A model generated the notes under the pieces. It was not told the origin of the DNA and did not search any database. It saw only the letters and a list, made by a program, of their open reading frames with translations. A program made the position numbers and the translations under genes. A stretch of 64,000 nt of DNA from Dehalococcoidia bacterium (lineage in GTDB: Bacteria; Chloroflexota; Dehalococcoidia; Bin125), in the NCBI GenBank assembly GCA_022825855.1, contig JAJDWB010000002.1, positions 62,001-126,000 of the forward strand, read 5' to 3'. Positions 22,796 to 31,532 of this stretch are shown piece after piece (position 1 is the stretch's first letter; each line of letters opens with the position of its first letter).

Positions 22796-23821
22796 CTAGG
22801 AGAGACCGGCCTCGGCCATGCGCACGCAGAGGTCGCCGACGCGCACGCTGTAGCCCCACTCGTTGTCGTACCAGCTCACGACCTTGACCTGCGTGCCCTC
22901 GAGCACCATCGTCGACATCGCGTCAATGATCGACGACGAGGGCGAGCCCTTGAAGTCGCTGCTGACCAGCGGCTCGGTCTCGTACTCGAGGATGCCGAAG
23001 AGGGACGACTCGCGCTCGGTCGCCGCCTTCTCGAAGGCCGCGTTGACTTCCTCCGCCGTCGTCTCGCGCTCGGCGTCGATCACCAGGTCGACGACGGAGA
23101 CCGTGCTGGTCGGCACGCGGTAGGCCATGCCGTTCAGCTTGCCGTTCAGATGCGGCAGCACCAGCCCGACCGCCTTGGCCGCGCCGGTCGTCGTGGGAAT
23201 GATGTTCATCGCCGCCGCGCGAGCCCGGCGCAGGTCGCTGTGGACCGTGTCGAGGATCGCCTGGTCGTTCGTGTAGGCGTGGATCGTGGACATGATCCCG
23301 CTCTTGATCCCGACGGTATCGTCGAGCACCTTGGCCATCGGCGCCAGGCAGTTCGTGGTGCAGGAGGCGTTCGAGATCACGTGATGCGAGGCGGGATCGT
23401 AGGCGTCGTCGTTGACGCCGAGTACAATCGTCAGATCCTCGTTCTTCGCCGGCGCCGAGATCACGACCTTCGACGGGCCGTGATTGAGGTGCCCGCGGGC
23501 CCGCTCCGCGTCGGTGAAGATGCCGGTGCTTTCGACGACGATCTCGACTCCGTGGTCGCCCCAGGGGATCTGGCCCGGGTCGCGCTCGGAGATCACGGCG
23601 ATCCGACGGCCGTCGATGACCAGGTCGCCGTCGACCACGTCGACCTCGCCCGGGTAGCGGCCGTAGTTGGTGTCGTACTTGAACAGGTGCGCGTTGGTCT
23701 CCGAGTCGGTCAGGTCGTTGATTGCGACGACTTCGAGGTTGTCGCCGTGGAAGTCGAGCATGCCCTTGAGCACCTGCCGGCCGATCCGGCCGAAGCCGTT
23801 GATGCCAATCTTCGTGGTCAC
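22796..23821 (-). CDS. gap: Glyceraldehyde-3-phosphate dehydrogenase
   Basis: A 341-residue type I GAPDH. The Rossmann start is [15 protein letters not shown]; the nucleophile is Cys154 in [12 protein letters not shown], with catalytic His181 in [10 protein letters not shown]. The substrate segment [19 protein letters not shown] and the end [15 protein letters not shown] are typical. Asp36 in INDLTD favours NAD. Translation starts at a GTG six bases after AGGAG. There is no pgk or tpi beside it; ffh follows downstream after a 47-base gap. Confidence 0.97.
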
Positions 23822-23921
23822 GGAAGTCTCCTGAATGATGGCGCAGTGAATGCGCGGTGCGCTGCCTTGCCCGCAGGGTCGCAGAGCGGCGCGATGCGCT
23901 CAAGCCTGTGCGCAGGTCCCA

Positions 23922-25040
23922 TCAGGCGGCGGCCACGCGTACGCTGCCCGATCCGTCCTCGCCGCTGGCCGGCTGCGCGTGCTGCGCCGGGTAGAACTGG
24001 GCGCAGTAGGCGCGGTACTTCGAGATCTCTCCGTCGGAGCGGCAGAGGCGGGGCCGGTGGCGATGCTGTTTGCGGCTCCAGATGGTGACGTCCTGCTGGA
24101 CGTCGCGCTGCTGCAGGTAGTTGAGGAAGCGGTTGAGCAGCGTGGTGCGCCGGCGGCGGGGGATGATGTTCAGCGGCCAGGCGATGCTGCGCGGCAGCGT
24201 CAGCTCGCGAACCTGCGAGGCGATGGCGAGGTCGATCTGCTCGCCGTCCAGGGGCGTGGCCAGGATCCACATGCGGGAGTCGAGGCCGAGGTTGTGTTCG
24301 CGGATTTCGACGTAGGAGAAGCCCAGCCCGTAGACGGAGGCGGCGGCGGTGACGTCGAGCGAGGCGTAGGGCAGGGGGCCGAGCCTGCGGTCGGACTTGA
24401 AGCGGAAGCGGCTGTGCAGGGCGGCGCCGTCGATCTCGATCGGCTCGGCCTGGGCGACGCTGCCGTAGCCGTGGACGTAGCGCAGATGGGCGATATCGAC
24501 GGCGTTCTCGGTGGTTTCCTGGGGATGGCCGGGGAAGCGCAGGGTGCGGATGTCGATCTCGCACCAGCCCTGCTGCTCGAGGTTCTGGGCGGGGATGTGC
24601 CATTGCGGCGGGCGGCCGTCGAGGCCCCACCAGGCGAAGACCATGCCGAGGACTTCGCGGGTGTCGAAGACGCGCAGGGCGGCCGAGCGGGGGGCGGGAG
24701 CGTAGGGCGTGGCGACGCACTGGCCGGTGGTGTCGAACTCGAAGCCGTGGAAGGGGCAGACGAGTCGGCCGTCGCAGATGGCGCCGCCGCCGTCGGGGCC
24801 GAGGTAGGCGCCGAGGTGGGGGCAGTAGGACTCGGCGACGCAGGGGCGGCCCTGGTCGTCGGCCCAGGCGACGACGTCGAGGCCCATCCACTGCCTGGCG
24901 ATGAGGCCGCGGCGGGCCAGCTCGCGCCGGCTGGCGACGAAGTACCAGCCTTCCGGGAAGGGAGGCAGCCTGGAACCGGTTGGAGCCGTATCCGCTGGAG
25001 CTGGCACGGTATGCACTCCGAAGGCCCTTGACGCCCACAT
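23922..25040 (-). CDS. Rieske non-haem iron oxygenase, KshA/DAF-36-like
   Basis: A 372-residue protein. The Rieske [2Fe-2S] ligands are C73-x-H75 (CPHLG) and C95-x2-H98 (CPFHGF). The mononuclear iron site is visible as ENAVDIAHLRYVHG (D182, H185, H190). This ENxVDxAHxxxVH form is typical of the 3-ketosteroid 9-alpha-hydroxylase KshA and the cholesterol 7-desaturase DAF-36/Neverland group, so a sterol-like or other polycyclic substrate is plausible but not shown. The reductase partner is not adjacent. The C-terminus (after about 325) is polar and low-complexity. Confidence 0.85.
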   Translation of the reverse strand: MWASRAFGVHTVPAPADTAPTGSRLPPFPEGWYFVASRRELARRGLIARQWMGLDVVAWADDQGRPCVAESYCPHLGAYLGPDGGGAICDGRLVCPFHGFEFDTTGQCVATPYAPAPRSAALRVFDTREVLGMVFAWWGLDGRPPQWHIPAQNLEQQGWCEIDIRTLRFPGHPQETTENAVDIAHLRYVHGYGSVAQAEPIEIDGAALHSRFRFKSDRRLGPLPYASLDVTAAASVYGLGFSYVEIREHNLGLDSRMWILATPLDGEQIDLAIASQVRELTLPRSIAWPLNIIPRRRRTTLLNRFLNYLQQRDVQQDVTIWSRKQHRHRPRLCRSDGEISKYRAYCAQFYPAQHAQPASGEDGSGSVRVAAA

Positions 25041-25147
25041 GGTACGCCGATTGGCTCGGGGAGTTTGCGTATTCGGGCACAGCGAAGCCGGGGTCGGCGG
25101 CCCCGTGGGAGAGAAAAAAACGAGCGGAAGCTGGGGGGTGATGGGGA

Positions 25148-25522
25148 TTACAGGGGGTCGTCGTCTTCCTCGGGTGGTTCGTCTTCGGTCGGAGGGGCCC
25201 CCGCCTGCGCGGGGGCGACTTTGAGTTGCGCGGGGTCGGCACCCGCCTTCGCGGGGGAACCCTCACCCCAGCCCTCTCCCAGGGGGAGAGGGGGCCGGAG
25301 GGAGTCGGCGCGGTCGTGGAGGTCTCGGAGGAGGTGGCGGGCGACGTCGTAGGGGTCGGTGGTGTGGTAGAGGCGGTTGTTGCGGGCGGCGTTGGGGTTG
25401 GGCGGGAACATCTCGCGGACGAGGGCCTTGAGGGCTTTGAGTTGCTTGTAGGCGGGGATGTCGCTGTTGGCGGTTCGCCAGAGTCGGTCGATGTGGGCTC
25501 GGTAGTGGTAGGGGTTGGGCAC
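25148..25522 (-). CDS. Small hypothetical protein with REP-derived C-terminus
   Basis: The frame encodes 124 residues. The first ~75 (MPNPYHYRAHIDRLWRTANS through DVARHLLRDLHDRADS) look like a real small soluble protein of unknown function. The rest, around PLPLGEGWGEGSPAKAG and APAQAGAPP, is the translation of a REP-like palindrome and neighbouring GC hairpins. An element inserted near the original stop probably extended the frame. No function is recognised. Confidence 0.5.
   Translation of the reverse strand: MPNPYHYRAHIDRLWRTANSDIPAYKQLKALKALVREMFPPNPNAARNNRLYHTTDPYDVARHLLRDLHDRADSLRPPLPLGEGWGEGSPAKAGADPAQLKVAPAQAGAPPTEDEPPEEDDDPL
25258..25301 (-). repeat. REP-like palindrome, copy 4, inside a coding frame
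   Basis: CCCTCACCCCAGCCCTCTCC followed by CAGGGGGAGAGGGGGCCGG is a diverged, inverted copy of the element at 19534. Two GC-rich hairpins (near 25199-25214 and 25241-25256) sit beside it. Confidence 0.75.
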
Positions 25523-26082
25523 GGGGGGCTCCTCTGTTGCGGGATGTACGTATGTTCTGATGATAGCGGGATTTGGTGGGATTGGGGGGATTGCGCCGGG
25601 ACTGGATCGAGGCGATCCAGGGTGATTGGCCGGTGGTTTGGCGCGTGATTGAAAGTGATCGTCAGGGCTGGGCTGGAGACCGTGTGTCGGGGTGGGCAGA
25701 ACTGTCGAGTTTTATCGGCTGCAGGTGTTGAGGTTCGTCCGGATGGGTCCAGGTGAGTTCGGGTGTTGGGTCAGGTCATCTGCGGGCGTCCTCCTTCCTG
25801 TTCGGTTGTTGAATCCGGACACGGGTTCCAAAAGGGTGTCCATGCCTTTAGCTGCTCACTTTAGTTCCAGCTTTGGGCACAGTTGGTCATATGGAAAAGG
25901 ATATGTTGCGTCGGCGGTCCCTGGCTCCAGAAGTCCAAACGGAGACGCAACCGCAGTCCGACTCACAAACCTTCCACAACTGCTATCAAGCCAGCACATG
26001 CGACCCGCACATCCTGCTCAACTGACGTTTCGTTCATTCAACCATTACTTGCGGTATATGCATGCGCTCCGCGGAAGGAAAG
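25523..26082. other. Intergenic region, composition change, no gene seen
   Basis: This is a 560-base spacer. GC falls noticeably after about 25700, marking the left edge of the methyltransferase locus. Short frames on both strands lack recognisable motifs and good starts. It may contain decayed sequence from the acquired segment. Confidence 0.5.
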
Positions 26083-26676
26083 TCAGCGCGGTGCGGTGTT
26101 GCCCAGACGCTCAACGACCTCCTCCTTCAGCATCTTTGCGACCTCATCCAGCAGGTCGTCTAAGTACTCGATCGAACTGACTTCTCTCGCAGTCGGCGCT
26201 AGATCAACAGCAAGGTGGGCCTTTCGCAGGGGAACATCCTCTGCGTTTACGTGCAAGTGCGGTCGCCTAGGGTATTCGATATCGTCAGTTTCATCGCCAG
26301 CGTGTGGTTGCCAGTGAAACAGGACAATCTCGCCTCGCCCTTGATCGTATGCGGGCTCCCTCAGCAAGTGGAAATGGACCCGTTCAAACTCCCACATGCC
26401 TTCTGCGCGGTCCAGCGGGAGCCACTGTTCCGAATAGTGGCAACGAATGTCTTCTGCTACCGAAGGGAAAGTCCACTCCCGAACGTTATGCGACGATGGT
26501 ATGCCGTGCTTCACGCCAATGGCGAGGGTCCGGTAGCGTGTTTTCGGATCTACTCCCAAGGTCAAACCCGACAGAGGACGTAGTCGCTCCCTAATGGCAC
26601 CTGGGCGGACTTGAGTAAGGGTCTCCACGTCAGACACAATGCTAGTGGTGGCGGGCTCGGGATTACCGTGTGTCAT
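26083..26676 (-). CDS. Unknown protein coupled to the adenine methyltransferase
   Basis: I do not recognise this 197-residue protein. Its ATG overlaps the methyltransferase stop by four bases (ATGA), so the two are translationally coupled. It is soluble, with a His-rich middle (HFHLLREP, LFHWQPHAG, PRRPHLHVN) and an acidic, helical C-terminus (YLDDLLDEVAKMLKEEVVERL). There is no PD-(D/E)xK or HNH motif that I can see. Codon and base use are lower in GC than the flanks, like its partner. It could be a specificity, nuclease or regulatory partner of the modification enzyme. Confidence 0.75.
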   Translation of the reverse strand: MTHGNPEPATTSIVSDVETLTQVRPGAIRERLRPLSGLTLGVDPKTRYRTLAIGVKHGIPSSHNVREWTFPSVAEDIRCHYSEQWLPLDRAEGMWEFERVHFHLLREPAYDQGRGEIVLFHWQPHAGDETDDIEYPRRPHLHVNAEDVPLRKAHLAVDLAPTAREVSSIEYLDDLLDEVAKMLKEEVVERLGNTAPR

Positions 26677-29279
26677 TTCCTTGGTCTAACCAAGTCAACA
26701 TGTTCATCTGACAATCGGTACACAACGTCAAGGAGAAGATCATCTAACTCCAATTCTGCAGATAGGGTATCGACACTTGAGTCGAGTATGATGGCCTTCA
26801 CTGACTCCACTATCACCCGCATGTGTTCGCCCGGCAAATCAATAGGGTTTGGCACCGGTATCCGTTTCAAGAGAGAGACGGAGAGTTCGTTGAAACCGCG
26901 GGCGAACTTTCTTGCGTTCTGATCAATGAACCAAGCCGAGACGCTCGAATTTAAGATGGCGGCCATGTAGAGCATGAGGTCTTCGTCGCTATCGGCATGT
27001 CGCGTTCGAATGAATGGTGCATGGCTTGGCACCCATGAACCCAATAGATCCACGGCAAAGCGGGGCAGCAGGAACACCCTTGGTGCGACAATTTTGGGAT
27101 TCAACACCTCTTCGGGACGACGCATGCGCGTAGGAAGCCACCAGTCGTTCTGCCCAGTGTGGGCACTTCTAGACACAAGGAGCTCCCGATGCTCGGACAG
27201 ACGCCGCCATGTTTCCGGAAAATCGGTGGCTAACTCCTCTTGGCCGGGAACTCGTCCATCGAAGTAGGGGTAGAAGACGTATTGGTCGGGGCTAGTCGGT
27301 ACGGTGAAGCGTTGAACAGTCCGATCTCTTAGTAGGGGCCGATAGACACGCTGCTCACCGTTCGGCAGGTCCGCCGAGTTGATCACAAAGGCTGGGTTGG
27401 CCCCGGAAATCACGCCTTGCCTTACTATTGCAAAGTCGTCAAGGATCTGGAGAGATTCCAGGGCGCGCATCAACTCTGATTCTTCGGGGCCGCGCACTGT
27501 CCATGTTGGTGCATCTAGCGCATCTTGCGTTTGGCGGTGTACGACATAGGACGGTGTGCGTCGTCTCGTGCCGTCAAGTACATCCTTTAGTGCATCTGGC
27601 ACATCGGCTTCGCAGCGCACGAGGTCGAGTGGTGGTGGGGCCGGAAGAGTCCCTGACTTCTTTTGCACGATCAGTAGCGCTACATAAACCTGTGCGTCGA
27701 AGACGCGGACTGCGGACAAATCGACCAGCAGCCGAATCCAAGCCTGATCGCGAATCCAGGTTCGCATTTTGCGCAAGTTGTCCGAAGTCAAAAGCGGATG
27801 TGGGATTACGAAGAACCCGAACCCGCCAGGGCGCAGTGCGGCAATCGATAAGGCAAGAAATGCGAGATAGGAGTCTGCCTTTCCCTTCACAGCGAAGCCA
27901 ACGTGGTGCAGGATTGCCTCTCGTAGCGCCGTCTTCTGATTCTCCGTGCGAAGAAACGGTGGATTGGCCATGATTGAGGCGTAGTCGCCCGCAAAGGGCC
28001 GTTCGATGTCTAACGAATCGCGGGCTTCAACTTGGACCGCGCCTGGCAACTTGCCGGTGGCCGTTAGGTACAGCAATGCCAGCGACAGCCGAGCTGCGGC
28101 GGCGGCATTGCTGTCAACGTCGAATCCCTTAAGCGAGGACAGGATGTCGCTCGGCTCGAGCGGAGATCCCATCGAAGCGTTCGTCCTGAGTTTCTCCTCC
28201 ATTACAGCCCGCAAGAAGACGCCTGAGCCACAAGCAGGGTCGGATACAGTAGACGTGAGGAAGCGATGCGGGCCACTCTGCAGGCTCAAGTAGCGAGCGA
28301 AGAAAGTAGCTATATATGGTGGCGTATAGATGCTGCCCAACAGTTTGTTGATGGTCAGCCTGTCGGAACGAGGAAACATGGAAAGCTGGACGGAATCTTC
28401 GTTCTGCAGCAGGGCGACATATCGTTCGTAAATCTTGCTGAGCGCGTGCTCTGAAATGATAGAGAAATCGTACTCGTATGGAATCGCACTGTGACCGTAG
28501 AATGCGTCGACAAGCTTGGAGCGTGTGGTCACGGGGAGCGTGTCGAAAGTCCGAAGAGCGCTTTGATCAATGAGCTCAGGCTGTTCCTGTCCAAGCCGCC
28601 CTAGGAGTGATTGGTTGATTGCCCGACTTAGCGGTGTGGTTGATGATGTCACTGTTTCTCGCAGAGTGGGAGCTGAAGGGCTTGTATCAGCCCGCTCATA
28701 GTGGTCTTCTACGGCTCGGGTAAGGATCAGTGCATTCATGAGGCTTGAAATTGCAGGCGTCGTGGTGGATGAGCCAAGTTCTAGGGCGAGGATGTCACGC
28801 CATGTGGAGATGGTGTCAAGTAAGAGGTCGTCCAAGGCGGGGAAGGCGGGTGATGGCGTGTTCTTTGTTTCGGCGTCGAAGGCAGAGCGATGGAGGGGTG
28901 AGTAGTCGTGGGGGCCAAATGTTGCTATGTTTATTGAAGCCGGTGAGGACTGGCGGTTGTAATAGTAATGGACGGAATCAGTGTCGATGAACAGGTGCCA
29001 GTCTATCAGGCTGTTGAAGGACAGCGCGAGAGTGTCCCGCTGGCGATCTTCGGTAACTTGTCCAGTCTGAATGCTGGCAGGAAAGAAGGAAAGTGCGGCT
29101 GCGTGTTCGATGCCGTCTTCCATGATGAGGGTGGTGGCAGGTAAAGCTGATGGGGCGTCCAGTAGGTTTCCGGGTTGCCAGCCAAACTGTCGGGCGAAGG
29201 AGTCAGCGAATCCCTTCCTGTTGTCCCAGGACGTGGACGGATCAGAGAGCCGATTGAGCAGGTCAGGTGTTGAAGTCAT
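26673..29279 (-). CDS. Eco57I-class N6-adenine DNA methyltransferase (type IIG-like)
   Basis: An 868-residue protein. The AdoMet site is DPACGSGVFLRAVMEE (motif I), followed by GFDVDSNAAAAARLSLALLY, and the catalytic motif IV is NPPF in ASIMANPPFLRTENQ, an N6-adenine type. The segment GGFGFFVIPHPLL follows. The C-terminal third (IVRQGVISGANPAFVIN, YVFYPYFDGRVPGQEE) resembles the target-recognition part of type IIG/Eco57I enzymes. The N-terminal ~200 residues carry no obvious PD-(D/E)xK, so the cleavage domain may be missing, diverged or supplied by the coupled gene. Lower GC suggests horizontal acquisition; the role is probably DNA modification in defence. Confidence 0.88.
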   Translation of the reverse strand: MTSTPDLLNRLSDPSTSWDNRKGFADSFARQFGWQPGNLLDAPSALPATTLIMEDGIEHAAALSFFPASIQTGQVTEDRQRDTLALSFNSLIDWHLFIDTDSVHYYYNRQSSPASINIATFGPHDYSPLHRSAFDAETKNTPSPAFPALDDLLLDTISTWRDILALELGSSTTTPAISSLMNALILTRAVEDHYERADTSPSAPTLRETVTSSTTPLSRAINQSLLGRLGQEQPELIDQSALRTFDTLPVTTRSKLVDAFYGHSAIPYEYDFSIISEHALSKIYERYVALLQNEDSVQLSMFPRSDRLTINKLLGSIYTPPYIATFFARYLSLQSGPHRFLTSTVSDPACGSGVFLRAVMEEKLRTNASMGSPLEPSDILSSLKGFDVDSNAAAAARLSLALLYLTATGKLPGAVQVEARDSLDIERPFAGDYASIMANPPFLRTENQKTALREAILHHVGFAVKGKADSYLAFLALSIAALRPGGFGFFVIPHPLLTSDNLRKMRTWIRDQAWIRLLVDLSAVRVFDAQVYVALLIVQKKSGTLPAPPPLDLVRCEADVPDALKDVLDGTRRRTPSYVVHRQTQDALDAPTWTVRGPEESELMRALESLQILDDFAIVRQGVISGANPAFVINSADLPNGEQRVYRPLLRDRTVQRFTVPTSPDQYVFYPYFDGRVPGQEELATDFPETWRRLSEHRELLVSRSAHTGQNDWWLPTRMRRPEEVLNPKIVAPRVFLLPRFAVDLLGSWVPSHAPFIRTRHADSDEDLMLYMAAILNSSVSAWFIDQNARKFARGFNELSVSLLKRIPVPNPIDLPGEHMRVIVESVKAIILDSSVDTLSAELELDDLLLDVVYRLSDEHVDLVRPRK

Positions 29280-29596
29280 TCAGGGTCTCTCGGTGGCGAC
29301 GGCATCTGACAGGTGTTAGTCACCATATCGCAGATGGGGGGCTTTCGGCTGCGGCGAGATGCGTCGGACACTCAGACAATGCCTGGAGCCCGGTTGGCGC
29401 TGGTCCTCTTGGATGATTCGCCGAGCGAGTTGGCTGCAGCAATGTGCATCCGAACCAAAGAGTCGGGATGGGTTCGAGAAGGTTGTGACGCTTAGAATGG
29501 CTAAGGATTGGGGGGCTCGGACCCAAGCGGCGGGTCTGCAAGTCGATGTGTCTCTTCACGACGTCTGACACCTGTGCCGTGGGCTGTGACTAACCC
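29280..29596. other. Intergenic region upstream of the methyltransferase locus, no gene seen
   Basis: A 317-base spacer of mixed composition. The promoter for the coupled methyltransferase genes should lie near its left end. No convincing coding frame or structured RNA was recognised. Confidence 0.5.
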
Positions 29597-29673
29597 TGGT
29601 GGGCCCTCTGGGACTCGAACCCAGGACTTTCGGACCAAAAGCTCGCTGCCCTGGCCTACTGGGCTACGGGCGC
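29597..29673 (-). pseudogene. Decayed tRNA-Lys (TTT) copy
   Basis: A 77-base tRNA-like sequence of the same length as the tRNA-Lys at 31415. The 3' 31 bases, including the T arm and encoded CCA, are identical between the two. The 5' part has decayed: acceptor mismatches C2-C71 and G7-A66, and a broken anticodon stem (GCGAG against TCCGA). The anticodon position still reads TTT. Confidence 0.75.
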
Positions 29674-29746
29674 AGAGCTGGTATATGCGGGGGGGAGGCA
29701 CCGAGCGGGTCCCGGCACAGAGGCCGGGACGGGAGGCGGAAGGCGG

Positions 29747-29792
29747 GAGGGCCCTCACCCTAACCCTCTCCCTCGGGGAGAGGGGACCGGAG
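29747..29792 (-). repeat. REP-like palindrome, copy 5
   Basis: An inverted copy of the 19534 element: GGGCCCTCACCCTAACCCTC, then TCCCTCGGGGAGAGGGGACC. Confidence 0.85.
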
Positions 29793-30093
29793 GCTGTCAC
29801 CCTCGAGTCTCCTGTTATGGCGAGGGGCCGGCAAGCATGGGGCAGGCTTCTCCCTCGGGGAGCGGAGACTCGCTATGTTGGACGTCGGGCAGGCGAGTGG
29901 ACGTAGGTTGCGGTTGCGCCGTCGACCCGCCCTAGCGCGGGATCGTCTGTTAGCGATTCCCGCGCTGCGCCCTGCATTGCCGACGACCTCTGTTTCCGGG
30001 CCACATCTTTGACATGCCCATGGGCCACTGACCCACTGGGTGGTCGTCGTCATTCCTCGGCAAGCGTGCGTATTGCGGCAGCGGTGCGACGAG
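29793..30093. other. Intergenic region, no gene seen
   Basis: A 301-base spacer between the REP copy and the first PaREP1-like gene. A partial second half-palindrome (TCCCTCGGGGAGCGGAGAC) lies near 29850 and a CGCGGGA/TCCCGCG hairpin near 29936-29965, which may act as a terminator for the minus-strand genes. No coding frame is convincing. Confidence 0.45.
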
Positions 30094-30453
30094 CTACGCC
30101 AGGTCGTCCAGCTTGCTGACCAGTTGCTCGACTGCGGCCATGTATCTCGCGACCGTCTCTTCGTCGAGCCATTCTTCGTAGTAGTTGGTGTGTAGCGCTC
30201 CGGCGAGTCCGAACTGGTCACGCATCTGTGCATCGTCGGCTTCAATCGCCAGGCGTCCTAGCGCCTGCCAGAGATGCCGATGACTCACGTGCGGCCAGTC
30301 GCGCGACTCCGCCGCTGCTTTGACGAGGACGGCTGCGGCGCCCCAGGCTTTCTCGGAGGCTTGCTTGAGATCGCCTTCGGCCAGGAGCGTGCGTGCGTGG
30401 TCGAGGTACTCGGCGCTCATATCGCGGTAGTGAACGACTTGCTCGGTGGTCAT
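30094..30453 (-). CDS. PaREP1 family (HEPN-like) protein, paralogue 1
   Basis: A 119-residue helical protein with the PaREP1 pattern: YLDHARTLLAEGDLKQASEK followed by AWGAAAVLVKAAAE, then SHRHLWQAL and LHTNYYEEWLDEETV. PaREP1 proteins belong to the HEPN-related helical bundles. A conserved R-x6-H (R..VSH) is present, like the HEPN ribonuclease motif, although its position differs from classic HEPN toxins. It is one of three tandem copies with nearly identical starts (MTTE..VHYR) and identical length. No nucleotidyltransferase partner is adjacent. Function unknown. Confidence 0.8.
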   Translation of the reverse strand: MTTEQVVHYRDMSAEYLDHARTLLAEGDLKQASEKAWGAAAVLVKAAAESRDWPHVSHRHLWQALGRLAIEADDAQMRDQFGLAGALHTNYYEEWLDEETVARYMAAVEQLVSKLDDLA

Positions 30454-30542
30454 GGGGTCAGTGTAGTCAACAGTCGAGAGTGACGCCCATGCCCAGCCCG
30501 ACGATTCCTGCCGTCTGACCTTGGCTGGCAGCCACGGGCGAG

Positions 30543-30565
30543 ATTCCCGCGGCAGGCGCGGGAAT
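30543..30565. repeat. 8-bp-stem hairpin between PaREP1 paralogues
   Basis: ATTCCCGC and GCGGGAAT pair around GGCAGGC. It lies between paralogues 1 and 2, downstream of the stop of paralogue 2, and may terminate or stabilise that transcript. It lacks a T-run. Confidence 0.5.
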
Positions 30566-30590
30566 GACGAGGTTGACGGGCGGACTAGGC
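30561..30590. repeat. 30-bp direct repeat at the 3' end of PaREP1 paralogue 2
   Basis: A 30-base sequence beginning GGAATGACGAGGTTGACGGG is repeated exactly at 30985-31014, at the same position relative to the stop codon of paralogue 3. It shows that the duplicated unit included downstream DNA. Confidence 0.85.
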
Positions 30591-30944
30591 CAAGTCGTCC
30601 AGCTTCCCGACTAGCCGTTCGACGTGCTGGAGGTACTCTTCGACCTCTTCGCGATTCATGGCGGCTTCGTAGAAGTTGATGTGCATGGTCTGGGCGTAGC
30701 CGAACTCGAGGCGCAGATCGGGGTCGCCGGTTTCGCCGACGAGTTGCCGCACGACGTTCCAGAGATTGCGATGCCCGTCATGCTGCAAGCCGCGCTTCTC
30801 GGCGGCTGCTTTGACCAGGACAGCGGCCGCGCCCCAGCCTTTCTCGGAGGCCTGGGTGAGGTCGCCTTCGGCCAGGTGGGCTCGCGCCTTGAGCAGATAG
30901 CCCGCACTGAGGTCTCGGTAGTGGTCCGTCTGGGCGGTCGTCAT
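30585..30944 (-). CDS. PaREP1 family (HEPN-like) protein, paralogue 2
   Basis: 119 residues, homologous along its length to the flanking copies, but the most diverged of the three: the segment after the conserved GHRNLWNVV differs (ETGDPDLRLEFGYAQTMHIN), and the tail is NREEVEEYLQHVERLVGKLD. The core ASEKGWGAAAVLVKAAAEKR and the R-x6-H spacing are kept, arguing for retained function rather than decay. It lies between paralogues 1 and 3, with 131 and 64 bases to its neighbours. Confidence 0.8.
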   Translation of the reverse strand: MTTAQTDHYRDLSAGYLLKARAHLAEGDLTQASEKGWGAAAVLVKAAAEKRGLQHDGHRNLWNVVRQLVGETGDPDLRLEFGYAQTMHINFYEAAMNREEVEEYLQHVERLVGKLDDLA

Positions 30945-30984
30945 GCGGTGATTCTATCTGAAGGCCGAGATGAGCGCGGGCGCA

Positions 30985-31014
30985 GGAATGACGAGGTTGA
31001 CGGGCGGACTAGGC
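30985..31014. repeat. 30-bp direct repeat at the 3' end of PaREP1 paralogue 3
   Basis: Exact second copy of the sequence at 30561-30590. Confidence 0.85.
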
Positions 31015-31368
31015 GAGGTTCTTCAACTTGGCGACGAGCTGCTCAACCTCTTCGAGGTAGCCTTCGACTGACCTCTCGTCGAGCCAGTGCTCGTAGTAGT
31101 TCGTGTGCAGCGCTCCGGCGAGTCCGAACTGCCGCCGCATGTCCTGATCTTCGGTTTCGTCGGCGATCCGATGCAGGGCGCGCCACAGGTCCCGATGCCC
31201 CTGATGCTGCCAGCCGCGTGATTCCGCCGCCGCCTTGACCAACACCGACGCCGCTCCCCAGGCCTTTTCCGACGCCTGTGGCAGGTCTCCCTCAGCCAAC
31301 AGCTCCCGCGCATGACGCAGATAGCTCGCGCTGAGTTCTCGGTAGTGGACGACTGGCTCAGTGGTCAT
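31009..31368 (-). CDS. PaREP1 family (HEPN-like) protein, paralogue 3
   Basis: 119 residues, very close to paralogue 1 (shared QFGLAGALHTNYYE and ASEKAWGAA..LVKAAAESR). The conserved R-x6-H reads R..QGH. It is the first copy in the direction of transcription and begins 46 bases downstream of the intact tRNA-Lys on the same strand. Closeness to paralogue 1 and the shared 3' flank with paralogue 2 imply successive tandem duplication or gene conversion. Confidence 0.8.
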   Translation of the reverse strand: MTTEPVVHYRELSASYLRHARELLAEGDLPQASEKAWGAASVLVKAAAESRGWQHQGHRDLWRALHRIADETEDQDMRRQFGLAGALHTNYYEHWLDERSVEGYLEEVEQLVAKLKNLA

Positions 31369-31414
31369 GGGGTCAGCATAGTCAACGGTCGCGATGGAGG
31401 CGGGCGCTCAGCAT

Positions 31415-31491
31415 TGGTGGGCCCTCTGGGACTCGAACCCAGGACCTTCGGATTAAAAGTCCGCTGCTCTGGCCAACTGAGCTAAGGGCCC
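31415..31491 (-). tRNA. tRNA-Lys (anticodon TTT)
   Basis: A 77-base cloverleaf: acceptor GGGCCCT/AGGGCCC, D arm GCTC...GAGC, anticodon loop CTTTTAA on the CGGA/TCCG stem (anticodon TTT), T arm CTGGGTTCGAGTCCCAG and an encoded CCA. All stems are intact apart from the usual weak 27-43 pair. It reads away from the divergent reductase gene that begins at 31533. Confidence 0.96.
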
Positions 31492-31532
31492 AGGGCCAGT
31501 GTATGCGGGGATTTGGGGGTAGGGTGGCGGGT

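Follow-up and report, generated by a model that had tools for sequence, protein, structure and literature searches.

Two overlapping genes, encoding an N6-adenine DNA methyltransferase of probable type IIG descent and its probable partner, a 197-residue protein, were found to be the entire cargo of an insert of 3.9 kb. The insert lies at a tRNA-Lys spot that other modules occupy in sister species. With moderate confidence, we regard the pair as a horizontally acquired and self-contained type II-like restriction-modification (R-M) or defence module of type IIG origin, in which, we infer, the methyltransferase is active, DNA is restricted and the partner takes the enzymatic role that supplies the lost restriction activity. 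The 868-aa methyltransferase would recognise its DNA sequence via the C-terminal domain and methylate adenine, its N-terminal nuclease domain, a type IIG inheritance, would be dead, and the 197-aa protein from the overlapping downstream gene would restore the restriction arm, most likely as the cognate endonuclease of an undescribed family, either alone or docked on the methyltransferase.

A low-GC insert at a tRNA-Lys spot

Both ORFs are on the minus strand, that of the 868-aa protein at 26673-29279, as placed by the ORF list and the ATGA junction, and that of the 197-aa partner at 26083-26676, and the start codon of the partner overlaps the stop codon of the methyltransferase in the four bases ATGA at 26673-26676. 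These are exactly the coordinates and the overlap given in an earlier note on this DNA, which had also described a two-gene modification locus with a coupled partner, a description that is supported, the pair being the only genes recognised in the insert. The same note's claim that base composition differs from both flanks holds as well, since the GC content of 26083-29279 is 0.555, compared to 0.666 on the left (25000-25652), 0.646 on the right (29597-31520) and 66.6% in the window, i.e. the whole 64-kb stretch analysed. The actual unit exceeds 26083-29279. In blastn against sister genome G011 the left flank aligned up to 25652 and the right flank again from 29596, and together with GC this delimits a genome-specific insert of 3.94 kb without assigned strand (25653..29595), the GC of which is 0.55-0.60 versus 0.65-0.67 outside. 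A scan of the locus for promoter-like sites found none. Across the 64-kb window GC skew is mostly negative on the left and positive on the right, the sign switching at about 23000-24000.

The insert is bordered by a tRNA-Lys(ttt) gene identified with ARAGORN (29597..29673, minus strand), of which a second copy is located at 31415-31491 (direct repeat D2, 85% over 96 nt). On one side the flank carries a Rieske-type oxygenase gene and on the other the tRNA-Lys, PaREP1/HEPN genes and a CaiB-like gene, and these flanks align to G011. Three tandem paralogous 119-aa genes of the PaREP1/HEPN family (30094-31368) are situated between the two tRNA-Lys(ttt) copies.

The same tRNA-Lys anchors a variable spot in sister genomes, and nine of these were found to have differing cargo when window 25653-29595 was compared with loci L203, L204 and L205-L211; both flanks were fully syntenic in G011 and G004, and the other sister genomes were anchored on the CaiB/tRNA side. 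In G006 an N6_N4 methyltransferase overlaps a BsaWI-like restriction endonuclease (REase) gene on the same strand, oriented like the pair in the window, the REase match being weak (19.9 bits against a cut-off of 26.2). G010 holds an N6_N4 methyltransferase and an MvaI/BcnI REase, G014 a methyltransferase with an HNH domain, and G011 a methyltransferase/HNH gene and a TIR gene with a 4-base overlap. XRE, ImmA/IrrE-like, Multi_ubiq, JAB and ThiF genes are found in G004, Fic in G005, a methyltransferase adjoining two genes of no recognised family in G012 and a DUF4209/DUF7380 protein in G001, and in the cargo of G009 no defence gene was recognisable by eye. The XRE and ImmA/IrrE-like proteins of the G004 operon (L204 5131-8389) are CapH-like and CapP-like, respectively, and the operon is probably a ubiquitin-like conjugation defence system. 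The variety of R-M, TIR, ubiquitin-like and Fic cargo indicates that the spot is a defence-type hotspot and that the methyltransferase/partner pair is a complete cargo, in agreement with the defence-type location anticipated in the earlier note. The spot thereby offers a way to locate more modules in this genus.

A probably type IIG-derived methyltransferase with a degenerate nuclease domain

By its sequence the 868-aa protein is a gamma-class N6-adenine DNA methyltransferase of the Eco57I family, as was proposed before, and has a predicted methylation activity. It matches PF07669 (Eco57I, E 6.8e-12) and PF02384 (N6_Mtase, E 4.8e-11) in Pfam, and from these matches and the motif positions the catalytic domain was assigned to residues 306-545 (27645..28364, minus strand, as are all features of the protein), including motif I, DPACGSG, at residue 347 (28221-28241) and motif IV, NPPF, at residue 439 (27954-27965). 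Upstream of this domain, residues 141-305 (28365..28859) form a helical connector as in type IIG, where a type IIG profile matches residues 148-412 with 44 bits. Downstream, residues 546-868 (26673..27644) constitute a putative TaqI_C-like target-recognition domain, delimited by PF12950 and the M.BseCI alignment; the PF12950 (TaqI_C) score of 19.4 bits is under its cut-off of 26.5, and this domain was also aligned in the comparisons with BseCI, CamA and type IIG, corresponding to the second domain of M.BseCI. The PDB sequence matches of the protein were structures of M.BseCI and CamA, 7lni/8cxz being presumably CamA.

Among 197 genomes the closest methyltransferase relatives were type IIG proteins of 930-1000 aa and type II methyltransferases of roughly 570 aa. 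The 868-aa protein aligns at full length with the 930-1000-aa type IIG homologues and scores 169 bits with a type IIG profile, and by such alignments it has a common origin with the type IIG R-M proteins. When 16 type IIG-like homologues are aligned with it, residues 1-140 (28860..29279) coincide with a degenerate PD-(D/E)xK-like domain, and it must be noted that here the alignment can be trusted less than over the methyltransferase core. The catalytic columns read D-E-K in 15 of the 16 homologues and E-A-gap (E54, A68, gap) in the window protein; the nuclease motif of the 16th homologue (L051) is likewise degenerate. The profile libraries of Pfam, NCBIfam and PADLOC detected no nuclease domain in the 868-aa protein. 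Thus, the suggestion that the large protein is without a visible nuclease motif stands in that no working motif is present, but has to be amended in that a type IIG PD-(D/E)xK domain persists as a dead remnant. The protein has the gamma-class N6 methyltransferase and the helical connector of type IIG and lacks a fused active PD-(D/E)xK domain, and it is best read, from these alignments, as a type IIG-derived methyltransferase carrying a catalytically dead nuclease remnant.

The earlier note had named one outcome that would speak against it, namely a PD-(D/E)xK domain in the large protein together with absence of the small protein from most homologous loci. Half of this outcome was encountered: a domain derived from PD-(D/E)xK is present but has lost the catalytic residues, and none of the examined loci of the methyltransferase relatives contains the 197-aa protein. 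This absence is not evidence against a partner role, since the relatives are intact type IIG proteins or type II methyltransferases, often with an REase of their own.

The order of N-terminal domain, helical connector, gamma methyltransferase and putative C-terminal recognition domain is that of the single-polypeptide type IIG enzymes of the Eco57I class, from which the window methyltransferase differs in having lost the catalytic D-E-K and in being overlapped by a second gene. Two-gene type II R-M systems with a TaqI/BseCI-type methyltransferase and a separate REase likewise have a methyltransferase beside a small separate gene, but the window partner matches no REase family and the window methyltransferase retains the dead type IIG N-terminal domain. 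A split type IIG system with a nuclease acting in trans has been proposed in Haloferax volcanii (HVO_A0006/HVO_A0237; PMC4389544), and there too a type IIG methyltransferase part without a working nuclease has a proposed partner in trans. The Haloferax trans piece is, however, a recognisable PD-(D/E)xK fragment encoded elsewhere (PMC4389544), whereas the window partner is an unrelated adjacent gene. Classical type IIP methyltransferases have been modelled to arise when a type IIG gene sheds its nuclease domain (PMC6158711), and the anatomy of the window methyltransferase is as expected of an intermediate in that model, although nothing in its partner suggests an origin from the type IIG nuclease. 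If the partner supplies restriction, the locus would be a natural intermediate from fused type IIG to separate type II, the step proposed in PMC6158711, and would point to a restriction or effector family missed by current libraries.

Membership in larger systems was rejected for BREX/Pgl (34.4 bits with NF033451 against a cut-off of 400, and an insert lacking BREX, DISARM and Pgl genes) and for MADS (25.8 bits with NF047738 against 720, and an insert of two genes only), and DISARM was set aside as the insert contains no further genes.

The 197-residue partner and an analogous alphaproteobacterial operon

The partner had been described as a His-rich protein of unrecognised family, and indeed it holds 11 His and was assigned to no family by profile searches. 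Pfam gave no match at E up to 10, NCBIfam, PADLOC and PHROGs gave nothing beyond noise, and PDB gave nothing convincing. Relatives were found neither in plasmids, phages, IMG/VR and a GTDB pattern scan, pattern scans detecting close relatives only, nor in its class and phylum, across hundreds of genomes, and the protein was seen in a single genome only. Matches below E 0.1 in 400 genomes of the phylum were inspected and judged to be due to chance, as were plasmid matches at E 2-10, which fell mostly within Xanthomonas methylase genes. The chance of 197 stop-free codons at the local composition is about 0.0008, and of the six frames only this one scores positively with the codon usage of the methyltransferase. 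A chance ORF is unlikely, though no homologue was found that would show selection.

A single-sequence AlphaFold model of the partner was unusable (pLDDT 33). No HNH, PLD or GIY-YIG match and no recognisable nuclease motif or fold was found in the protein, and the one DxK tripeptide, at residues 43-45, carries no weight alone. No REase family matched, though the gene adjoins and overlaps a methyltransferase gene. Type II REases with unrelated specificities usually have no sequence similarity to one another (PMC4081073), and an unrecognised REase would therefore not be exceptional.

The methyltransferase had plasmid matches in Sinorhizobium mexicanum and Sphingomonas sp. NY01, where a methyltransferase of 815-830 aa is overlapped by a partner of 245-260 aa, and a GTDB scan with that partner yielded 22 further loci, all in Alphaproteobacteria or unplaced Proteobacteria except for one Lysobacterales MAG. 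The operon (L094 2760-6476; L097 5540-9184; L098-L119) consists of a MerR-like gene, an Eco57I methyltransferase without nuclease motif and the 250-aa partner. This layout, shared by 20 loci, is unnamed, and no description of it was found in the open-access literature. In these 20 loci, which were compared as both genes are present and the methyltransferase is essentially complete, the start of the partner lies between about 45 bases upstream and 5 bases downstream of the methyltransferase stop, and the identities of the two proteins are correlated (Mantel r 0.916, with 0/5000 permutations as high), the partner diverging 1.37 times faster than its methyltransferase. The upstream gene of roughly 150 aa has marginal MerR similarity and is present in most loci but was not found in L115, L116 and L119, and the genes flanking the operon differ among loci. 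In L098 the methyltransferase gene is in pieces that are separated by about 2.4 kb.

RxEW and AGHPHWQxD are invariant in the alphaproteobacterial partner and H(L/F)(A/P)SAAxWW is near-invariant, and the databases searched gave no family for it. Its model (pLDDT 78) predicts an antiparallel sheet and a long C-terminal helix, for which no clear structure match, nucleases included, was obtained; the best matches (Z 6.5: Mediator Med17C and actin capping protein) are middling and were not taken as informative. As some carriers are named isolates, among them S. mexicanum, Mesorhizobium tamadayense and Methylobacterium sp. GXS13, the operon is a tractable test case.

The window shares with this operon a homologous methyltransferase without nuclease motif (151 bits with the alphaproteobacterial methyltransferase profile over residues 278-818, a score similar to the 169 bits with type IIG) directly upstream of, and overlapped by, a partner of no recognised family; the operon differs in the third, upstream gene of most loci and in that homology between the two partners is not significant. 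HMMER hmmsearch with the alphaproteobacterial partner profile gave -1.7 bits for the 197-aa protein and hhalign a P of 0.45, and the profile-alignment score was equalled by 19/980 real ORFs and 155/3000 shuffles (rank p about 0.02-0.05). By eye the comparison is suggestive, with a shared order of YxExW, an aromatic strand, W, HxHxx(D/E), HLA and a C-terminal helix, a list drawn post hoc that counts little. A search of the phylum with the same profile gave no convincing match. It is doubtful that the 197-aa and 250-aa partners belong, as remote relatives, to a single undescribed effector family recurrently paired with nuclease-dead, type IIG-derived methyltransferases. Should they do so, they would represent a class of defence in which a new protein has taken over the restriction arm of a fused PD-(D/E)xK domain.

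Possible roles of the partner

An effector role of the partner, as raised in the earlier note, is putative. Several observations argue for a restricting partner: the family and motifs of the methyltransferase; the loss here of the D-E-K that is intact in type IIG-like homologues standing without the 197-aa protein; an insert with these two genes only; the other R-M and defence genes of sister species at the same spot; the REases often found beside catalytic-domain relatives without fused nuclease; the PIN-type genes that overlap the methyltransferases of L051 and L059; and the layout of a methyltransferase with an overlapping partner, conserved also in Alphaproteobacteria, where the two proteins diverge in a correlated way (r 0.92). 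Counting against it are the lack of a recognisable nuclease in the 197-aa protein and of a clear nuclease match in the alphaproteobacterial analogue. These last observations, together with the antiparallel sheet and long C-terminal helix of the analogue, would suit an accessory or regulatory subunit that controls specificity, stability or expression in a modification-only system or in a non-cleaving one of BREX type, and the methyltransferase does have distant similarity to the PglX/BREX methyltransferases. Such a role is nevertheless rather unlikely, since the insert, from which BREX, DISARM and Pgl genes are absent, would then carry no visible effector, and the BREX score of 34 bits is far under the cut-off of 400.

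It is still less probable that the partner is a toxin-like effector, e.g. an RNase or NADase, released or triggered by loss of methyltransferase activity or by phage and leading to abortive infection instead of DNA cleavage. The methyltransferase overlapping a TIR gene at the same spot in G011 and the overlaps with PIN and DUF5615 genes in L059 and L051 are consistent with an effector of this kind, but no profile library gave a toxin family match for the 197-aa protein. Least probable of the readings is a decaying locus, with an orphan methyltransferase and a leftover or spurious downstream ORF, to which the dead nuclease domain, the single known genome of the partner and the promoter scan could point; both frames are, however, intact, coupled by ATGA and matched in codon usage, and the methyltransferase motifs are intact. 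A horizontally acquired module with a restricting partner is the reading we retain.

Neighbours of other methyltransferases were also recorded. The methyltransferase of L051 (927-4572), which has lost the intact nuclease motif, overlaps a DUF5615 (PIN-like) gene, and that of L059 (2317-5371), also without an intact nuclease motif, overlaps a PIN gene, so that methyltransferase plus PIN is possibly a recurrent pairing. An REase often adjoins catalytic-domain relatives without fused nuclease, of the PaeR7I family in Vibrio and as an annotated REase in Lactobacillus, and neighbours bearing DxK/ExK were seen beside methyltransferase relatives in L055, L057 and L068. Methyltransferase-overlapping neighbours of 183 aa in Nostoc and 222 aa in Bradyrhizobium were considered as relatives of the 197-aa protein and rejected, as they have no similarity to it. 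On the Nostoc plasmid (L168 1964-9290) a TaqI-like methyltransferase overlaps the 183-aa protein, which is a predicted membrane/coiled-coil protein and is followed by a 418-aa protein of no recognised family and then by a helicase-related protein.
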